Of a stretch of DNA of 64,000 bases, positions 5,600 through 64,000 are shown piece by piece. Origin of the DNA: Bacteroidia bacterium (GTDB lineage: Bacteria > Bacteroidota > Bacteroidia > J057); the NCBI GenBank assembly GCA_033391075.1, contig JAWPMV010000001.1, positions 930,001 through 994,000 of the forward strand, given 5' to 3'. Position 1 is the first letter of the stretch; every line of letters begins with the position of its first letter. Both the position numbers and the translations under genes were made by a program. Under the pieces are notes generated by a model. The model had not been told where the DNA came from. It made no database searches and worked only from the letters and a program-made list of their open reading frames with translations.

Positions 5600-6400
5600 A
5601 TGCTTAAGCGTCTCAGTCACTTTTTTACGGATGATAAGATCGTTTTTGTTGTCATCTTACTAAATGCTGTCCTCCTTTGTGCTCTGGCCTTTGATCTGGA
5701 CATCCAAACCGTGCACACCCTCGAATGGTTGGACTTCGGATTCATTATCTATTTCTTATTAGAGGCTTTATTTAAAATACGGGAAAGTGGCTGGAAGGAC
5801 TACATCAAAATGGGCTGGAACCGCTTTGATTTTGTGATCCTGGTACTAAGTATGCCAACTATCTTTGCCCTACTGTATGGCAATATTCAGGAATCAGACT
5901 TTTCTCTCATTTTCCTTTTCCGTATCGTCAGGGTAGTTCGCTTCTTTAAGTTCCTCAAATTCATCCCTAATATGGAGGAATTGTTAGCAGGGATAAGAAG
6001 AGCTTTTAAAGCCTCAGTATTTGTCGTGCTTGCTTTCGTAATCTTTGGCTTTGTGATTTCGATGATCAGCAATAAGATATTTGGGGAGGTAGCCCCGGAA
6101 ATGTTTGGCGATCCGGTAATCTCTTTCTATAATATTTTTAAGGTCTTTACCATAGAGGGATGGTTTGATGTACCAGAGAAGATTATCGAAAGTGGAGGTT
6201 GGACAGGACAGGAAGCCTTTTGGACAAAAGTTTACTTTATCATCATAGTTGTCACAGGGGGATTATTCGGTTTGTCTATTGTAAATGCAATCTTCGTTGA
6301 GGAAATGGTACGGGATAATAATGATGACCTGATCCTGAAAATTGAAGAGATGGATAAAAAGCTGGATACGCTACTTCAGAGGGATTCTTCTTCGCAGTAA
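5600..6400 (+). CDS. Bacterial voltage-gated cation channel, predicted Ca2+-type filter
   Basis: A 266-residue single-domain channel subunit of the NaChBac/NavAb type (Ion_trans, PF00520), expected to form tetramers in the inner membrane. S1-S3 occupy about residues 13-95. S4 is at 108-120 with basic residues at every third position (R108, R111, R114, K117, K120), the voltage sensor. S5 is near 138-160, the pore loop holds the filter TIEGWFD at 184-190, and S6 is near 210-232. A charged, probably coiled-coil tail (232-258) follows, as in related channels. NavAb-type sodium channels have TLESW(S/A); the Gly after Glu and the terminal Asp here resemble the calcium-selective CavMr (TLEGWVD, from memory). 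Ion selectivity is therefore inferred as Ca2+, not shown. Confidence 0.9.
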   Translation: MLKRLSHFFTDDKIVFVVILLNAVLLCALAFDLDIQTVHTLEWLDFGFIIYFLLEALFKIRESGWKDYIKMGWNRFDFVILVLSMPTIFALLYGNIQESDFSLIFLFRIVRVVRFFKFLKFIPNMEELLAGIRRAFKASVFVVLAFVIFGFVISMISNKIFGEVAPEMFGDPVISFYNIFKVFTIEGWFDVPEKIIESGGWTGQEAFWTKVYFIIIVVTGGLFGLSIVNAIFVEEMVRDNNDDLILKIEEMDKKLDTLLQRDSSSQ

Positions 6401-6460
6401 GATCAAATCATCAAGCTTGTGTTAAGGCAGTATTAAAATCATAAAATCTCCTAAAAATTG

Positions 6461-6491
6461 TTTGCTTAAAACTTCCATCCCTCTATCTTTG
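6461..6491 (+). promoter_or_regulatory. Promoter of tRNA-like RNA unit 1
   Basis: TTTG at 6461-6464, exactly 19 bp, then TATCTTTG at 6484-6491: a full match to the Bacteroidota consensus. Transcription should start near 6497. The same 19-bp spacing is seen before units 2 and 3. Confidence 0.7.
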
Positions 6492-6496
6492 CAGCG

Positions 6497-6655
6497 GGTT
6501 TTAGGGAGTACTCCTTTTACATGAAATCCTATACAGATAAAGCAGTTTTGAATGCTGCTTAGAGGTTTATGAAAGGTTCGAATCCTTTCTCTGTAACTAC
6601 GCGAGTAGTAGTAGTCCTTTATAATCGGTCCCCGGAATATCCGGGGATTTTTTTT
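6497..6655 (+). ncRNA. tRNA-like small RNA, unit 1 of 3
   Basis: Predicted transcript of about 160 nt between a consensus promoter and an intrinsic terminator. It holds a tRNA-like fold: acceptor strand TACAGA (6532-6537) pairs with TCTGTA (6590-6595), and the T-arm is GAAAGG (6571-6576), loop TTCGAAT, CCTTTC (6584-6589), so the 12-bp acceptor/T stack of a tRNA is kept. Between them is only one hairpin (6540-6560, 7-bp stem, loop TTTGAAT) that looks like an anticodon arm reading TGA with U33 and A37; there is no D-arm. After the fold comes the block conserved in all three units (6599-6617, CGAGTAGTAGTAGTCC) and then the terminator. A 13-codon ORF (ATG at 6521, ending VLNAA) overlaps the hairpin. 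I cannot match it to a named RNA family; a pseudo-tRNA is the main alternative. Confidence 0.6.
6629..6655 (+). terminator. Intrinsic terminator of unit 1
   Basis: TCCCCGG, loop AATAT, CCGGGGA, then eight T residues (6648-6655). The 5' half of the stem is preceded by the conserved AATCGG shared with unit 3. Confidence 0.85.
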
Positions 6656-6755
6656 ATTTCGCTGTAACCTCTTTTTAAAATATTCGTTGATATATTCGTA
6701 ATTATTCAATGTTATTTTGAATATTTTAAAAAATATCAGATTTATTTTAATAATA

Positions 6756-6786
6756 TTTGAATTATCAATATAAAATCCTATCTTTA
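6756..6786 (+). promoter_or_regulatory. Promoter of tRNA-like RNA unit 2
   Basis: TTTG at 6756-6759, exactly 19 bp, then TATCTTTA at 6779-6786. One base off the -7 consensus; the spacing equals that of units 1 and 3. Confidence 0.65.
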
Positions 6787-6791
6787 CTAAA

Positions 6792-6988
6792 GAATCAAGG
6801 AGATATTTGAAAAACATTACAGAATGTAAAGGCAATTGCCACAGATTGCCAGGGAAAGTCTAAAAAATTCAGATGCTTTGTTGAAGGGCTTTGAATTGAA
6901 AGACTGAAGGTTCGAATCCTTCTTCTGTAACACACGAGTAGTAGTAGTCCTTTTTAATTGGTCCCCGACATCCCTTGTCGGGGTTTTT
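6792..6988 (+). ncRNA. tRNA-like small RNA, unit 2 of 3
   Basis: Predicted transcript of about 197 nt. The acceptor TACAGAA (6818-6824) pairs perfectly with TTCTGTA (6923-6929), extendable to 8 bp with the flanking T/A. The T-arm is GAAGG (6906-6910), loop TTCGAAT, CCTTC (6918-6922). About 80 nt lie between, longer than a normal tRNA core. They include the palindrome GGCAATTGCC (6831-6840), a pair AGTCT/AGACT (6857-6861 and 6901-6905) and an inner hairpin AATTCAGA/TTTGAATT, but no convincing anticodon arm. The conserved AGT block is at 6932-6950, followed by a terminator whose stem differs in sequence yet still pairs. No in-frame start codon exists for a peptide reading through the GTA repeats here, which argues that RNA rather than peptide is conserved. 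Confidence 0.6.
6963..6988 (+). terminator. Intrinsic terminator of unit 2
   Basis: CCCCGACA, loop TCCCT, TGTCGGGG (8 perfect pairs), then TTTTT at 6984-6988. Stem bases differ from units 1 and 3 on both sides while pairing is kept. Confidence 0.85.
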
Positions 6989-7076
6989 CCTTTTTACAGG
7001 TGTGGTATTTAGATTATTGTAAAATTTGAGCTTTTTTTTATAAAAAGTTAAATAAATGCAATATTTTTTAGAAATA

Positions 7077-7107
7077 TTTGAATCGTAAATAAAATATACT
7101 ACCTTTG
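7077..7107 (+). promoter_or_regulatory. Promoter of tRNA-like RNA unit 3
   Basis: TTTG at 7077-7080, exactly 19 bp, then TACCTTTG at 7100-7107: a full consensus match with the same spacing as units 1 and 2. Confidence 0.7.
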
Positions 7108-7112
7108 ATATA

Positions 7113-7317
7113 AGAAAGTCATCGAGGCTTTCAGTTCTCTGCAGGATGATGAAAATGGAAGACATACCCCTTTGTCTCGGGGGCGAGGGTTAGGGACAAA
7201 GCCCCCCTTAATTGGGGGGCCTAACCGCCTCAAGAAGGTTCGATTCCTTCTCCTGCAGCACGCGAGTAGTAGTAGTCTATTAAAATCGGTCCCCGGTCTA
7301 GCCGGGGATTTTTTTTT
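7113..7317 (+). ncRNA. tRNA-like small RNA, unit 3 of 3, class II tRNA-like
   Basis: Predicted transcript of about 205 nt and the most tRNA-like of the three. Acceptor TGCAGGA (7140-7146) pairs with TCCTGCA (7251-7257). A D-arm-like segment follows (ATG/CAT stem, loop AAAATGGAAGA at 7152-7162 with the GG pair and A14/A21-like bases), resembling that of tRNA-Leu. An anticodon-like arm comes next (CCCCT 7167-7171, loop TTGTCTC, GGGGG 7179-7183). The variable region is about 50 nt and holds nested complements (CTTTGTC/GACAAAG, GGTTAGG/CCTAACC, CCCCCC/GGGGGG), like a GC-rich palindromic repeat inserted into a variable arm. T-arm GAAGG, loop TTCGATT, CCTTC (7234-7250). The conserved AGT block (7260-7277) and a terminator complete it. 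It may be a decayed tRNA, but the shared 3' module and promoter argue for one RNA family. Confidence 0.6.
7290..7317 (+). terminator. Intrinsic terminator of unit 3
   Basis: TCCCCGG, loop TCTAG, CCGGGGA, then nine T residues (7309-7317). Confidence 0.85.
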
Positions 7318-7407
7318 GGACCCTTCCGCTGCAAGCCGAGTTTCCCTTCAGTAGAAAGGAAGCAGCGCGCATATGGCAGGTAGGATTTAGGTTTATAAGC
7401 TATCTTT

Positions 7408-7471
7408 AAAATGGATCTGTACGCACTCCATAGTTTGCAAAACAAGGGAGTGAGGCTAGTGGCGGTGGGTC
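7408..7471. repeat. 64-bp direct repeat, copy A
   Basis: Begins AAAATGGATCTG and ends GGCGGTGGGTC; near-identical to copy B 138 bp downstream (about five differences). It contains an internal hairpin CACTCC...GGAGTG around the core AGTTTGCAAAACAA. Nearby CCGCTGCAA motifs (7329 and 7483) hint at a larger decayed repeat or MITE-like element between 7317 and 7610. No ORF worth calling is present. Confidence 0.75.
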
Positions 7472-7546
7472 TGGAAGGCCTCCGCTGCAATCCGCAGCAG
7501 TATAGATTTAATCAGTAAGCTTTCTATACACAAAACACACTACACA

Positions 7547-7610
7547 AAATGGATCTGCGCGCACTCCTTTAGTTTGCAAAACAAGGGAATGAGGCTAGTG
7601 GCGGTGGGTC
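7547..7610. repeat. 64-bp direct repeat, copy B, overlapping a gene end
   Basis: Second copy of the 64-bp repeat. Its right end contains the stop codon (7595-7597) and the last codons of the minus-strand oligopeptide-binding lipoprotein, so the C-terminal residues GTHRH of that protein derive from repeat sequence. This suggests the element inserted at, and replaced, the original 3' end. Confidence 0.75.
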
Positions 7611-9283
7611 CCCCTGACTTCTTTTAAAAAAAGATGATTCATCGGATTCCCAAGCATGCCTGTTATTCCTTTTTGAAGGATGCGGAAACTTTTATCATAA
7701 TAGAGGGGAATGATCGGAGCATCCTTCATGGCAATCTGATCCATTTGCTGATAGAGTTCAAATCTCAGAGAGTCATTGGGAATCTCCAGGGCTTCGCTAT
7801 ATAGGCGGTCAAAGTCCTCATTTTTATAATGAGTTCGGTTTGGTCCGTTGGGAGCAAAGTTTTTCCCATACAGCAATCCTAAATAATTTTCAGGATCGGG
7901 ATAATCGGCAATCCAACTTGCCCGCCAGAAGTTCAAGCGCGAAGAAATCGACTCTGAACGCAAAGCACCGCCTTCCATATTCTGCACATCGAGTGTGATT
8001 CCGATATTTTCACAAGCTTTCTGAACAAACTCTGAGATATGGGCATACTTGGACGTTGAGTTCAATGTGATAGGGCTCAATCCCTTGCCATTGGGATAAC
8101 CTGCTTCCGCTAAAAGAGCTTTTGCCTTCCCTAAGTCATACGAATATCCGATTACCTTTTCGCTAAAACCCGGCATTCCTCGGGGAACTATGCCTGCATG
8201 AGCAGGATAGCCCATACCATTCAGGAGATATTTTACCAGTTTCTCTCGATCAATCGCATAGTTGATCGCCTGCCGTATTTTTGGATTTGCCAGTGGATGG
8301 CCCTGATAAGCTTCGGCTTCCGGATCAACGAGAAAGCATAGAAATTCGATGTTTAGTTGTGGGGCAAGGATCAATTGATATTTTTCTCCATACTCCTCTT
8401 TCACCCTGCCATCCGGATATAATACCTCATCTTTGTAGGAATTGTCCAGATCTCCAATGAAATCCAGATTTCCTTGTACAAATTCAATAAAAGCAGAAAG
8501 GCGACTATTGATAAAACTGACATCAACTGCATCGAGGTAGGGAAGTTTTGTTCCCTGGGCTGAATATTCGAAGTAGTTAGGATTTTTGTGAAGAATGAGT
8601 CTTTGTCCTTCTTGCCAACGATAAAATTGGAAAGCTCCGGTACCTATAGGATGGGAGGAGAAGTCTTTGCCATAATGCTCGGCGACTTCTTTAGGAACTA
8701 CATACGCAAAAGGCATTGCCAGGAGGCTGAGAAAAGCAGGGAAAGCTTTGCTCAATCGTATTTCAAGGGTGTGTGCATCCAATGCTCGAAAGCCTTCTAT
8801 ATGATCGGCTTTTCCATCTCTAAATGCTTCAACTCCTAAAATTTTGTCGCGGAATATCCAGGAACCTGAGGAGCCCAGTTCCGGATCGCAGATTCGACTG
8901 AAACTGTACACAAAGTCATCGGCTACTACCCTTCTGCTACTGTCCTTTCCAAAGAGGGGATCTTTATGAAAAAACACCTCTTTTTTCAGGTAGAAGGTAT
9001 AAGTCTTTTTATCCTCTGAAATACTTAGAGAATCGGAAATGGCAGGCTGGATATTTAATACAGAATCTAATGTTACGAGTCCGTTGAATATCTGGGAGGT
9101 CATCCATATTTTGGTCCTGGCGCTGGCAAAAGCTGGATCGAGGGAATTGAGCGTTTCCGAAAGATTCATCCGAAAAACGTCTTTATCCACAGGCTTATCC
9201 ACCGTCTGTCCACAACTTATCCACAAGAGTGGAAAAAATAAGAGACTTATGCACATTAAGTTTTGAAATCTGTGGCACAGCAT
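7595..9283 (-). CDS. Family 5 oligopeptide-binding lipoprotein (ABC transporter)
   Basis: A 562-residue extracytoplasmic solute-binding protein of family 5 (SBP_bac_5, DppA/OppA/NikA type). The start is placed at ATG 9283-9281: the frame is open further upstream but that would overlap parA, and this start gives a clean lipoprotein signal with lipobox LWISC. Family motifs include LDPAFASARTKIWMTSQIFNGL near the N-terminus, FYLKKEVFFHKDPLFG, the IRQAINYAIDREKLV segment and a C-terminal half with ASWIADYPDPENYL. Family members bind peptides or nickel in the periplasm and feed an ABC importer; here no permease or ATPase gene is nearby, so it is an orphan. The last residues are encoded by a 64-bp repeat. 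Its N-terminal codons overlap a DnaA-box cluster. Confidence 0.92.
   Translation of the reverse strand: MLCHRFQNLMCISLLFFPLLWISCGQTVDKPVDKDVFRMNLSETLNSLDPAFASARTKIWMTSQIFNGLVTLDSVLNIQPAISDSLSISEDKKTYTFYLKKEVFFHKDPLFGKDSSRRVVADDFVYSFSRICDPELGSSGSWIFRDKILGVEAFRDGKADHIEGFRALDAHTLEIRLSKAFPAFLSLLAMPFAYVVPKEVAEHYGKDFSSHPIGTGAFQFYRWQEGQRLILHKNPNYFEYSAQGTKLPYLDAVDVSFINSRLSAFIEFVQGNLDFIGDLDNSYKDEVLYPDGRVKEEYGEKYQLILAPQLNIEFLCFLVDPEAEAYQGHPLANPKIRQAINYAIDREKLVKYLLNGMGYPAHAGIVPRGMPGFSEKVIGYSYDLGKAKALLAEAGYPNGKGLSPITLNSTSKYAHISEFVQKACENIGITLDVQNMEGGALRSESISSRLNFWRASWIADYPDPENYLGLLYGKNFAPNGPNRTHYKNEDFDRLYSEALEIPNDSLRFELYQQMDQIAMKDAPIIPLYYDKSFRILQKGITGMLGNPMNHLFLKEVRGTHRH
9183..9255 (+). promoter_or_regulatory. 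DnaA-box cluster, possible replication origin element
   Basis: Five same-orientation sites in 73 bp: TTATCCACA (9183-9191), TTATCCACC (9195-9203), CTGTCCACA (9206-9214), TTATCCACA (9217-9225) and TTATGCACA (9247-9255). Three match TTATNCACA perfectly, the first four are spaced 11-12 bp apart, and an A/T-rich tract (9231-9247) lies among them. The cluster overlaps the first codons of the lipoprotein gene and sits about 70 bp from parA. Whether it is oriC, a regulatory DnaA site or coincidence with coding sequence cannot be decided here. Confidence 0.55.
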
Positions 9284-9297
9284 GTCTTTCAAAATCG

Positions 9298-9305
9298 TAT
9301 ATTTG
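9298..9305 (+). promoter_or_regulatory. Possible -7 element for parA
   Basis: TATATTTG matches TAnnTTTG and lies 21 bp upstream of the parA ATG. No TTTG is found at the expected -33 distance, so support is partial. On the other strand CAAAGATA (9312-9319) gives TATCTTTG facing the lipoprotein gene, also without a -33 partner. Confidence 0.35.
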
Positions 9306-9326
9306 TGCAAACAAAGATAACAGAAT

Positions 9327-10127
9327 ATGGGTAAGATCATTTGTCTCGCCAATCAAAAAGGAGGTGTGGGAAAAACCACAACAGCTATAAACCTGGCTGC
9401 GAGTTTGGCAGCTTTGGAATACAAAACCCTCCTGGTAGATACAGATCCACAAGGAAATGCGACTGTGGGCTTGGGTGTAGAGCTTGAAACTGCTGAGTAC
9501 AGCATTTATTCCGCCATGATTGATGAAGATTTAAGTGTGGAGAAGGTAGTCATGGAGACAGAATTTCCGAATCTTCATGTAATAGCCTCCCACGATAATC
9601 TGGCAGGTGCTGAAGTTGAGATTGTCGAAGAGGAAAACCGCGAGTTTATGATGAAAGAAGCACTCGAGCGCTTTCGTGATCATTATGATTTCATCATCCT
9701 GGACTGCTCGCCTTCCCTTGGCTTGATTACAATCAATGCCCTTACAGCTACGGATTCTGTCCTGATTCCTGTTCAGTGTGAATATTTTGCATTGGAAGGA
9801 TTGGCAAAACTTCTAAATACGATTAGAATCGTTCAAAGCGGATTGAATAAAAATCTGGCCATTGAGGGGATTCTCCTGACTATGTATGATCAACGATTGA
9901 AAATCGGTTCTCAGGTCATAGATGAAGTTAGAAAGCATTTTCAACATCTTGTTTTCCAAACAATAGTTCATCGAAACACTCGTCTTAGTGAAGCTCCTTC
10001 CTATGGACAACCGGTGCTGGCCTTTGATGCCAAATGTAAAGGAGCCTTGAACTATATGAATCTGGCAAAAGAAATACTTGTCAAGAATGAACTGTCTTTA
10101 AATAAACAGGCGGCTATGGCCCGATAA
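9327..10127 (+). CDS. parA: ParA/Soj-type chromosome partitioning ATPase
   Basis: A 266-residue P-loop ATPase of the ParA/MinD family. The deviant Walker A motif KGGVGKTT is at residues 11-18 with the signature lysine K11, Walker A' is [11 protein letters not shown], and Walker B is FIILDCSPS. The usual length and the sequence [21 protein letters not shown] near residue 210 fit chromosomal Soj/ParA, which binds DNA as an ATP dimer and moves ParB-parS complexes during segregation. ParB normally follows; here an intrinsic terminator and an unrelated T9SS gene follow instead, so the gene is an orphan in this window. Its closeness to a DnaA-box cluster suggests an origin-proximal position. Confidence 0.93.
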
Positions 10128-62226: not shown

Positions 62227-64000
62227 ATGTGTGGAATACTAGGCGCAATCCCTAAACAAGACGAAACCACTTTTCTTCATGCTCTGAATTTAATGGAACA
62301 CAGGGGACCAGATGGTTTTGGGACCTGGCACGATGAATCCAATCAGGTAAGTTTGGGCCATAGACGTCTGTCCATCCTTGACCTCTCGGAAAATGGGAAA
62401 CAACCCATGTTTTATGATCGCTTTGTGATCACCTTCAATGGAGAGGTATTCAACTTTACAGAAATAAAGATCGAACTGGAAAGCAAAGGCTACCAGTTTC
62501 GCTCTGATTCAGATACAGAGGTAATTCTGGCTGCCTACATGGAGTGGGGAGCAGATTGTCAGCAAAAGTTCAACGGTATGTGGGCTTTTGCGATCTGGGA
62601 TAGAGAAAGAAGAGAACTTTTCCTTTCCAGAGACAGATTCGGGATCAAACCTCTTTATTATGCAATTATAGGACAGCAATTGGTATTTGCTTCCGAAATG
62701 AAATCGATTTTTCCTTTTCTTCCTCAATTGCGGGTATCAAAGGACTTTGAATTCTGTAAGAGCAATATGTTTGATTATGAAACCACGGATAAATGCCTGG
62801 TAGAAGGAATCAAACGCTTCCCTGCAGGACACTTTGCAAAAGTTTCTTTGGACAATGTGAGTTCATTGGAGCCGGTGCGTTGGTGGAATACCCTGGATAG
62901 TATTTATGAAGTAGGGGATAATTATGAAGAGCACGTAGAGCGCTTTAGAGAACTTTTCTTTGACGCGATAAAAATACGGATGCGTTCTGATGTACGTATT
63001 GGTACAGCTTTGAGTGGAGGAGTAGATTCCAGCGCTGTGATCTGTGCGATGGCCAATATCAATCGTGCCGGAGATAGCCGGGTTGCCAATGATTGGCAGA
63101 ATGCATTTTGCGCCACTTTCCCCAATACCATGCTGGATGAAAGTCGCTATGCCAAAATGGTAACCGATCACCTGGGGATCAATGCCGTTTTCAAGGAAAT
63201 CAATCCAGTGAAAGGTCTCGACAATCTGGAAGAATATCTATGGTTGTTTGAAGAAATGTACCTCACCAGCCCGATTCCCATGATCGAGATCTATAAGACG
63301 ATCAAGGAAAATGGCGTAACGGTAAGTATCGATGGACATGGGGCGGATGAATTGATCGCTGGATATGGAGGAAATATGTTTGATGCGGTGATGGATTCGC
63401 CTTTCAATTTCTCCAAGATCCAGAATCTGGTCAATACCTTTGTGGATTACATGGATTTCGAAGAAGAAGGAACCCTGTCCAAAAAAATGGAATTGTATCA
63501 GCGAGGCTATAAGCAAGTCGCTGTAAGATATAGAAACCTCTTCCTGAGAGATGGAAATAAAAGTGGAGATCCTCAAAGAGATAAGTTGGGTCATTTCAAC
63601 AAGTATCTCTATGCTGAATTTCACGAAAAAGTATTACCTACTCTCCTGAGAAACTATGACCGCTACTCTATGGCGGCAAGTGTTGAGATTCGTATGCCAT
63701 TTATGGATCACAGACTCGTTAGCTACTGTTTCTCATTGCCCTGGCATAGCAAGCTAAAAGGAGGATATACGAAATCTGTTCTTCGTCAGGCCATGGATCC
63801 ATATGTGCCTCAGGAGGTCATTTGGAGAAAGAGCAAGATTGGTTTCAATACACCTTTCGCCGAATGGATGAAAGGATCATGGAAGGAATATCTGCTCGAT
63901 ATGGTTGCTTCTTCAGATTTTAGCAATTCTGATGTTGTGGATTCTGCAGCTGTAAGAAAGCAAATCGAAGGAGTTATCCTCGGAAATGCAGTACAATATA
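62227..64000 (+). CDS. asnB: Asparagine synthase (glutamine-hydrolysing), 3' truncated by window
   Basis: 591 codons are visible and the frame is open at the window end. The ATG is followed directly by Cys (MCGILGAIP), the N-terminal nucleophile of class II glutamine amidotransferases, exposed after removal of Met. Further glutaminase motifs are HRGPDGFGTW, GHRRLSILDLS and FNGEVFN. The synthetase domain has the PP-loop SGGVDSS (about residues 263-269) and the MPFMDHRLVSYC stretch. In polysaccharide clusters such AsnB-like proteins may amidate sugars (WbpS-like) rather than make free asparagine; the sequence alone does not decide. It diverges from the glycosyltransferase pair. Confidence 0.93.
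   Translation, partial: MCGILGAIPKQDETTFLHALNLMEHRGPDGFGTWHDESNQVSLGHRRLSILDLSENGKQPMFYDRFVITFNGEVFNFTEIKIELESKGYQFRSDSDTEVILAAYMEWGADCQQKFNGMWAFAIWDRERRELFLSRDRFGIKPLYYAIIGQQLVFASEMKSIFPFLPQLRVSKDFEFCKSNMFDYETTDKCLVEGIKRFPAGHFAKVSLDNVSSLEPVRWWNTLDSIYEVGDNYEEHVERFRELFFDAIKIRMRSDVRIGTALSGGVDSSAVICAMANINRAGDSRVANDWQNAFCATFPNTMLDESRYAKMVTDHLGINAVFKEINPVKGLDNLEEYLWLFEEMYLTSPIPMIEIYKTIKENGVTVSIDGHGADELIAGYGGNMFDAVMDSPFNFSKIQNLVNTFVDYMDFEEEGTLSKKMELYQRGYKQVAVRYRNLFLRDGNKSGDPQRDKLGHFNKYLYAEFHEKVLPTLLRNYDRYSMAASVEIRMPFMDHRLVSYCFSLPWHSKLKGGYTKSVLRQAMDPYVPQEVIWRKSKIGFNTPFAEWMKGSWKEYLLDMVASSDFSNSDVVDSAAVRKQIEGVILGNAVQY

Follow-up and report, generated by a model that had tools for sequence, protein, structure and literature searches.

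The third of three tandem small RNA units in the stretch of Bacteroidia DNA analysed here (64,000 nucleotides, called the window) belongs to a family of RNAs that fold into a class II cloverleaf like that of tRNA-Leu, with a giant variable arm. The family is undescribed as far as could be found, and its members are tRNA-like RNAs of a non-canonical kind that probably take no part in decoding. No description of it was found in the literature searched, the scope of which excluded most subscription journals.

Organization of the locus

The three separate units lie on the + strand downstream of an ion-channel gene (5600-6400, +; Ion_trans, PF00520), and each is composed of a Bacteroidota promoter whose spacing is exactly 19 nt, a T-arm of the tRNA type, C74 as an encoded base, the module CGAGTAGTAGTAGTC and a strong intrinsic terminator. 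An initial annotation, made from the letters of the window, had proposed three units with a promoter, a T-arm, a common block and a terminator, and the statistics of promoters, terminators and repeats bear this layout out. The pattern TTTG-N19-TANNTTTR has five matches in 64 kb against 0.77 expected, three of which stand exactly upstream of the units, and the five terminator-like sites in the region, where shuffles give 0.9, include the + strand stems of all three units. The module occurs in three exact copies, all at the units, with no other in the 9.49-Mb genome, and a 74-nt 3' part is present as a three-copy direct repeat with spacings of 333 and 328 nt. As had also been observed, no + strand protein gene follows; the next protein gene (7595-9352) is on the minus strand.

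Unit 1 is preceded by its promoter at 6461-6491 (TTTG-N19-TATCTTTG) and has a tRNA-like core at 6532-6597, with acceptor strands at 6532-6538 and 6589-6595, the T-arm at 6572-6588, A73 at 6596 and C74 at 6597; it has a body of its own, the D-arm is absent, and the module (6602-6616) and the terminator (6627-6656, stem 6627-6649) come after it. The promoter of unit 2 (6756-6786, TTTG-N19-TATCTTTA) is followed by a core at 6818-6931, which also has its own body, with acceptor strands at 6818-6824 and 6923-6929, the T-arm at 6906-6922, A73 at 6930 and C74 at 6931, and then by the module (6935-6949) and the terminator (6963-6989, stem 6963-6983). Unit 3, with its promoter at 7077-7107 (TTTG-N19-TACCTTTG), is a full member of the family (7139-7259) and scores 121 and 116 bits with the covariance models R1 and R2, respectively. 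Its parts are N-1 (7139), the acceptor (7140-7146 with 7251-7257), the anticodon loop TTGTCTC (7172-7178), the variable arm (7185-7231), the T-arm (7234-7250), G73 (7258) and C74 (7259), behind which are found the module (7263-7277) and the terminator (7288-7317, stem 7288-7310).

A closed acceptor stem had been ascribed to all three units. Counting Watson-Crick pairs only, this stands for unit 2 (7/7 pairs, attained in 65 of 3000 shuffles) and unit 3 (7/7, 23 of 3000), but in unit 1 the stem is marginal (6/7, reached by 252 of 3000), and once G-U pairs are allowed the acceptors of units 1 and 2 are indistinguishable from chance. The common block, said to lie about 5 nt after the acceptor, begins 4-5 nt past C74 in each unit, with the correction that the C ending the tRNA-like part is itself an encoded C74. 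C74 is also encoded by the genome's ordinary tRNA genes, which is why the C found in every family member is assigned to position 74 and its 5' neighbour to the discriminator; on the same ground, a 7-bp acceptor with G73 and C74 is preferred to one of 8 bp with a C discriminator.

A D-arm, an anticodon arm and a variable arm are recognisable in unit 3 only. Units 1 and 2 retain the T-arm, C74 and the tail on unrelated bodies, and they are local, lineage-specific derivatives that have lost the identity elements and are most likely kept for the trailer.

Several other features were observed in the window. Downstream of unit 3 there is a near-identical pair of about 64 nt (7408-7471 and 7546-7610; AAAATGGATCTG...GGCGGTGGGTC), 98% and 91% alike in two parts. 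The minus-strand frames 6422-6835, 6869-7165 and 7230-7490, antisense to the units, have in common a DYYYS stretch derived from the module and a stretch of the IEPS/FEPS type that is typical opposite tRNA T-arms, and are likely annotation artefacts. At 62227-63999, next to sugar-polymer genes, a frame starts with MCGILGAIP and by eye looks like an enzyme of the glutamine-dependent asparagine synthetase type.

Structure of the unit 3 family

In an alignment of 71 distinct sequences, fitted to a model whose first structure, for eight sequences, had been derived from single folds and the tRNA pattern, 96.6% of the pair cells are standard, and double changes fill 355 cells, compared with 115 after shuffling and no more than 69 when the partners are slid. 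The acceptor has 7 bp plus a mostly paired -1/73 position, the D-stem has 3 bp and carries a tRNA-Leu D-loop, the anticodon stem has 5 bp with a 7-nt loop, and the T-arm is canonical. A 4-bp base opens the variable arm and is followed by an internal loop that is conserved (GGGAYAAA/GCUAAC) and by a distal helix that is hypervariable. In the long forms, found in phages and many bacteria (for example L258 6342-6492, minus strand, and L197 1501-1677, + strand), the arm contains an additional conserved element, GGGUUGACCAC, which could be a binding domain. A cloverleaf with covarying stems together with a tRNA 3' end is found in the unit 3 family only.

Ordinary tRNA-Leu genes are among the nearest-scoring non-members, and the family has in common with tRNA-Leu the fold, the 3-bp D-stem and D-loop, A20a and the T-arm. 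It differs from tRNA-Leu in having G73 instead of A73 and a GUC-type anticodon loop, and in a variable arm that is several times longer and contains the conserved internal loop.

The RNA finders applied do not see these genes. None of the three units is recognised by Rfam 15 (4227 models), where the sub-threshold matches are weak, and ARAGORN reports none in the window; of 46 family loci, 45 give no ARAGORN call and one is misread as a tRNA-Pro. This agrees with the initial annotation, which knew of no named RNA family of this kind. A genome-wide search with RF00005 at E <= 10 leaves the units and the genome's own second family copy unmatched, and the 49 ordinary tRNAs returned by a whole-genome tRNA search do not include the units. 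For tmRNA and tRNA-Sec, the only result was a tRNA-Sec match below threshold (17.6 of 47 bits), with none at the family loci. A self-splicing intron or a tmRNA was ruled out, there being no Rfam match, and Ser, Leu and Sec identities were rejected on their determinants.

Distribution and genomic neighbours

Model R1, made from eight sequences reached through DNA similarity in relatives, detects 17 members in 10 of 13 genomes of the window's taxonomic family, all with at least 98 bits, while the next-best matches in these 13 genomes are of ordinary tRNA size and have at most 60 bits. With the same model, members are also found in two further families of the window's order and, across the class, in 65 of 395 sampled genomes (E <= 1e-11). 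In a phylum sample searched with R2, members have at least 81 bits and matches of about 85 nt at most 66 bits, which is a clear gap; by a hand count, a member is present in 40 of 395 genomes, and one of the families concerned, f116, lies outside the class. The RNA is present in many Bacteroidia families. The units have homologues elsewhere and match no known family, two points on which the initial annotation had made its claim depend.

An exact 23-mer covering the T-arm and the acceptor end occurs in 20 IMG/VR viral contigs, 19 of which score 79-105 bits and one 64.5, and the search of annotated phages gave a single match, in a 636-kb phage record that is itself unannotated. Genes of phage type (terminase, helicases, exonucleases) stand beside the RNA in the viral contigs tested, and some of these contigs may be crAss-like, going by the terminase. 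With unit 3 as the query, no relatives were found on plasmids. In phages, the RNA is in some cases part of a tRNA array, several of these arrays also having a tmRNA gene, and in others the sole tRNA-like gene of the stretch examined. The contigs L255, L260, L263, L265, L267, L268 and L270 combine the RNA in a tRNA array with a phage tmRNA gene, and four of these seven tmRNA genes have an unusually long predicted tag peptide. Since phage contig L253 encodes an ordinary tRNA-Asp alongside the tRNA-like RNA, the latter is no substitute for tRNA-Asp there.

On chromosomes, a divergently transcribed Lrp/AsnC regulator gene adjoins the RNA at 35 of 53 loci, as judged from domain matches. The regulator was rejected as an obligate partner because it also occurs in genomes without the RNA.

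The window's genome also contains arrays of odd tRNAs apart from its normal set, L227 (G000:C1:1139500-1140600) and L228 (G000:C1:1175700-1176500), which possibly belong to a mobile element or prophage. One of the two includes a second tRNA-Asp with the loop CTGTCTC, which has U37 as in the unit 3 family.

Identity elements and a possible function

Bacterial aspartate identity is determined by G73, G10, G34, U35, C36 and C38, with a minor contribution of the second acceptor pair, whereas for amidation U1-A72 makes Asp-tRNA-Asn a substrate and G1-C72 and U20a are preventive (PMC9976931). The enzyme responsible, GatCAB, occurs in some Bacteroidetes genera (PMC4206432). Across 87 distinct family sequences, the AspRS-substrate set is present almost throughout (G73 in 86, G34 in 84, U35 and C36 in all 87, C38 in 86), and U1-A72, G2-C71 and C74 are invariant (87 each); position 34 is C or U in 3 of 71 bacterial members. 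G10 is found in only 18 of 71, and the G1-C72 pair that is strictly conserved in bacterial tRNA-Asp is missing, its place being taken by U1-A72 in 87/87, which counts against an aspartate reading. As to the features of GatCAB substrates, both are in place: U1-A72 in all 87 and, in the 20a-like column, A in 71/71, with U20a absent. The G73 of 86/87 members departs from the A73 of LeuRS substrates, and the combination used by SerRS and allo-tRNAs (C72, C11-G24, a large variable arm) is not found either, with A72 in 87/87 and C11-G24 in 13/71.

The features of a decoding elongator are lacking. Position 37 is U in 75 of the 87 sequences, G in 6 and C in 6, so that a purine is found in 6/87, and it is never A; U33 is present in 57/87, and most members from the window's taxonomic family have G33. 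Decoding is unlikely, given the complete lack of A37 and the poor retention of U33. The commonest loops of the family differ from the tRNA-Asp loop of the genome, CTGTCAC, mainly at position 37. In all, G73, G34-U35-C36 and C38 are common to the family and tRNA-Asp, and its U1-A72 is that of the genome's tRNA-Asn, whereas the class II body, the missing A37, the U33 that is not kept and the missing G1-C72 set it apart from tRNA-Asp and tRNA-Asn. Other non-decoding or odd tRNAs are the allo-tRNAs and the staphylococcal tRNA-Gly for the cell wall, which resemble the family in their complete tRNA fold and probable non-decoding use and differ from it in body plan, identity and phyla.

These elements suggest an RNA that AspRS could charge, that GatCAB could amidate and that would serve the ribosome poorly, if at all, and the idea of an aminoacyl mimic, raised at the outset, is strengthened by an identity set of the aspartate type (PMC9976931). 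The aspartate/asparagine reading, drawn from sequence rules, is the best-supported mechanism. It is a real possibility, held tentatively, that the unit 3 family is an aspartate-charged, non-decoding tRNA-like RNA and a substrate for amidation, with units 1 and 2 as derivatives and the trailer as a second product. Such an RNA would be made and trimmed like a tRNA, by RNase P at the 5' end and with CCA completed after C74, and would receive aspartate from AspRS by way of G73, G34-U35-C36, C38 and G2-C71. Without A37 and a conserved U33 it would not be used in decoding, and the invariant U1-A72 would make the charged RNA a GatCAB substrate and yield Asn-RNA; its likely job would therefore be a tRNA-dependent Asp/Asn reaction or a sensor outside translation. 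The neighbouring AsnC-type regulator possibly controls the RNA, and in the units with a module, cleavage that removes the tRNA-like part may set free an sRNA about 55 nt long. Neither a transfer enzyme nor any other consumer of the charged RNA came to light.

The 3' module and its trailer

A covariance model of the T-arm plus the trailer, R3, detects nine module units in five genomes (five genera) of the window's taxonomic family with at least 79 bits, the next score being 38. C74 and the module are present in every one of the nine, whereas the partner units have diverged in their bodies, and one unit, G003_1, lacks the acceptor. A related ion-channel gene precedes the module units in G003, G006 (by eye) and G007, as in the window, and the unit of G009 is at a contig end. 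Directly downstream of the module unit of G006, a minus-strand frame (L149) resembles a tyrosine recombinase by eye, with no Pfam match for its first 138 residues; if this reading is right, the G006 unit may be an integration site. The initial annotation had regarded the units as one family with a shared 3' module: they are tRNA-like, non-mRNA genes and do share it, but they are not equivalent, and the module, a local addition, is normally absent from the wider unit 3 family. No copy is present in IMG/VR phages by exact pattern, and the module 15-mer, searched against all genome contigs, gave among the matches listed mostly chance occurrences in coding DNA and one real new one, apparently that of G009. 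A perfect antisense target was rejected, as the reverse complement of the module does not occur in the genome.

The trailer is composed of a stretch of AGU repeats followed by the terminator. In centroid folds, the repeats are open (single-stranded) in most trailers, and part of them is paired in that of unit 3. Hfq is encoded in 0 of 13 genomes, so binding of Hfq through the ARN repeats of the module was rejected; RRM proteins are encoded in all 13. The conserved trailer of the module units probably corresponds to a 3'-trailer sRNA, a second product of about 55 nt. It resembles in origin the 3'ETS-leuZ of E. coli, a conserved trailer of similar length (53 nt) behind a tRNA part, which differs in being located within an ordinary tRNA operon and in acting with Hfq-bound sRNAs, whereas the genomes considered here are without Hfq (PMC8166272). 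In layout it resembles the FopS sRNAs of Bacteroides, with paralogous copies, a single-stranded 5' part before a terminator and RRM proteins in the host (PMC11697453); FopS genes are free-standing and have no tRNA-like part, and the units described here have no Rfam match. Processing of the trailer and its binding by RRM proteins are putative.

The trailer may even be the main product, a possibility to which somewhat less weight is given. In that case, three promoters would drive three copies of one sRNA, made of AGU repeats and a terminator hairpin, the tRNA-like parts would serve mainly as processing signals for RNase P and RNase Z, as with the 3'ETS of leuZ, and an RRM protein could bind the repeats. 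The conservation of the trailer in nine units of five genera with diverging bodies, the single strandedness of the repeats before the terminator in most folds, the distribution of RRM proteins (13/13) and Hfq (none) and the two precedents (PMC8166272; PMC11697453) speak for it, whereas most of the wider family has no module, the trailer of unit 3 itself can pair part of the repeat, and G003_1 is without the acceptor that processing should need. It is compatible with aspartate charging as the best explanation for unit 3.

Other explanations

That the RNA is a tRNA-Asp isoacceptor used in decoding, with a body of unusual form, is improbable. It would have the anticodon GUC and a loop that differs mainly at position 37 from that of the cell's tRNA-Asp, the second tRNA-Asp of the window's genome also has the loop CTGTCTC, and resistance to anticodon nucleases, if that were its advantage, would explain the presence in phages, where the RNA occurs in tRNA arrays. 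Against this stand the U33 of 57/87 and the G33 of most members from the window's taxonomic family, the complete lack of A37, the replacement of G1-C72 by U1-A72 and the ordinary tRNA-Asp that one phage has as well.

Equally improbable is an uncharged decoy or sponge that would bind AspRS, a tRNA-modifying enzyme or a tRNA-cutting toxin, or an RNA partner that the Lrp/AsnC protein would contact through the loop of the variable arm. The conserved GGGAYAAA/GCUAAC loop, GGGUUGACCAC in the long forms, the Lrp/AsnC neighbour and the carriage by phages are in its favour, yet a decoy would have no need for C74, U1-A72 and a complete acceptor end, which are kept in 87/87. Functionless, decaying tRNA copies, suggested by the loss of the D-arm and identity elements in units 1 and 2 and of the acceptor in G003_1, are hardly credible in view of the strong covariation across the family, the exact promoter spacing of all three units, the module conserved in five genera and the presence in phages.

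Significance

A tRNA-shaped RNA family that is spread across the phylum and some phages has been overlooked by ARAGORN and by all 4227 models of Rfam 15. For the reading as an aspartate-charged RNA outside decoding, the identity elements lead to a sharp prediction, namely charging with aspartate, possible conversion to asparagine and no decoding, and the trailer module would be a putative case of tRNA-like processing that releases an sRNA in bacteria without Hfq. On a wider and more doubtful view, Bacteroidota and their phages would share a non-translational amino-acid carrier RNA, charged by AspRS, amidated to asparagine and coupled to an AsnC-type regulator, on which the asparagine supply would be made or sensed, and some copies in the window's family would double as a source of the trailer sRNA. 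If confirmed, the charging and amidation of these RNAs would be a non-ribosomal use of aminoacyl-tRNA with a neighbouring regulator and a connection to phages.
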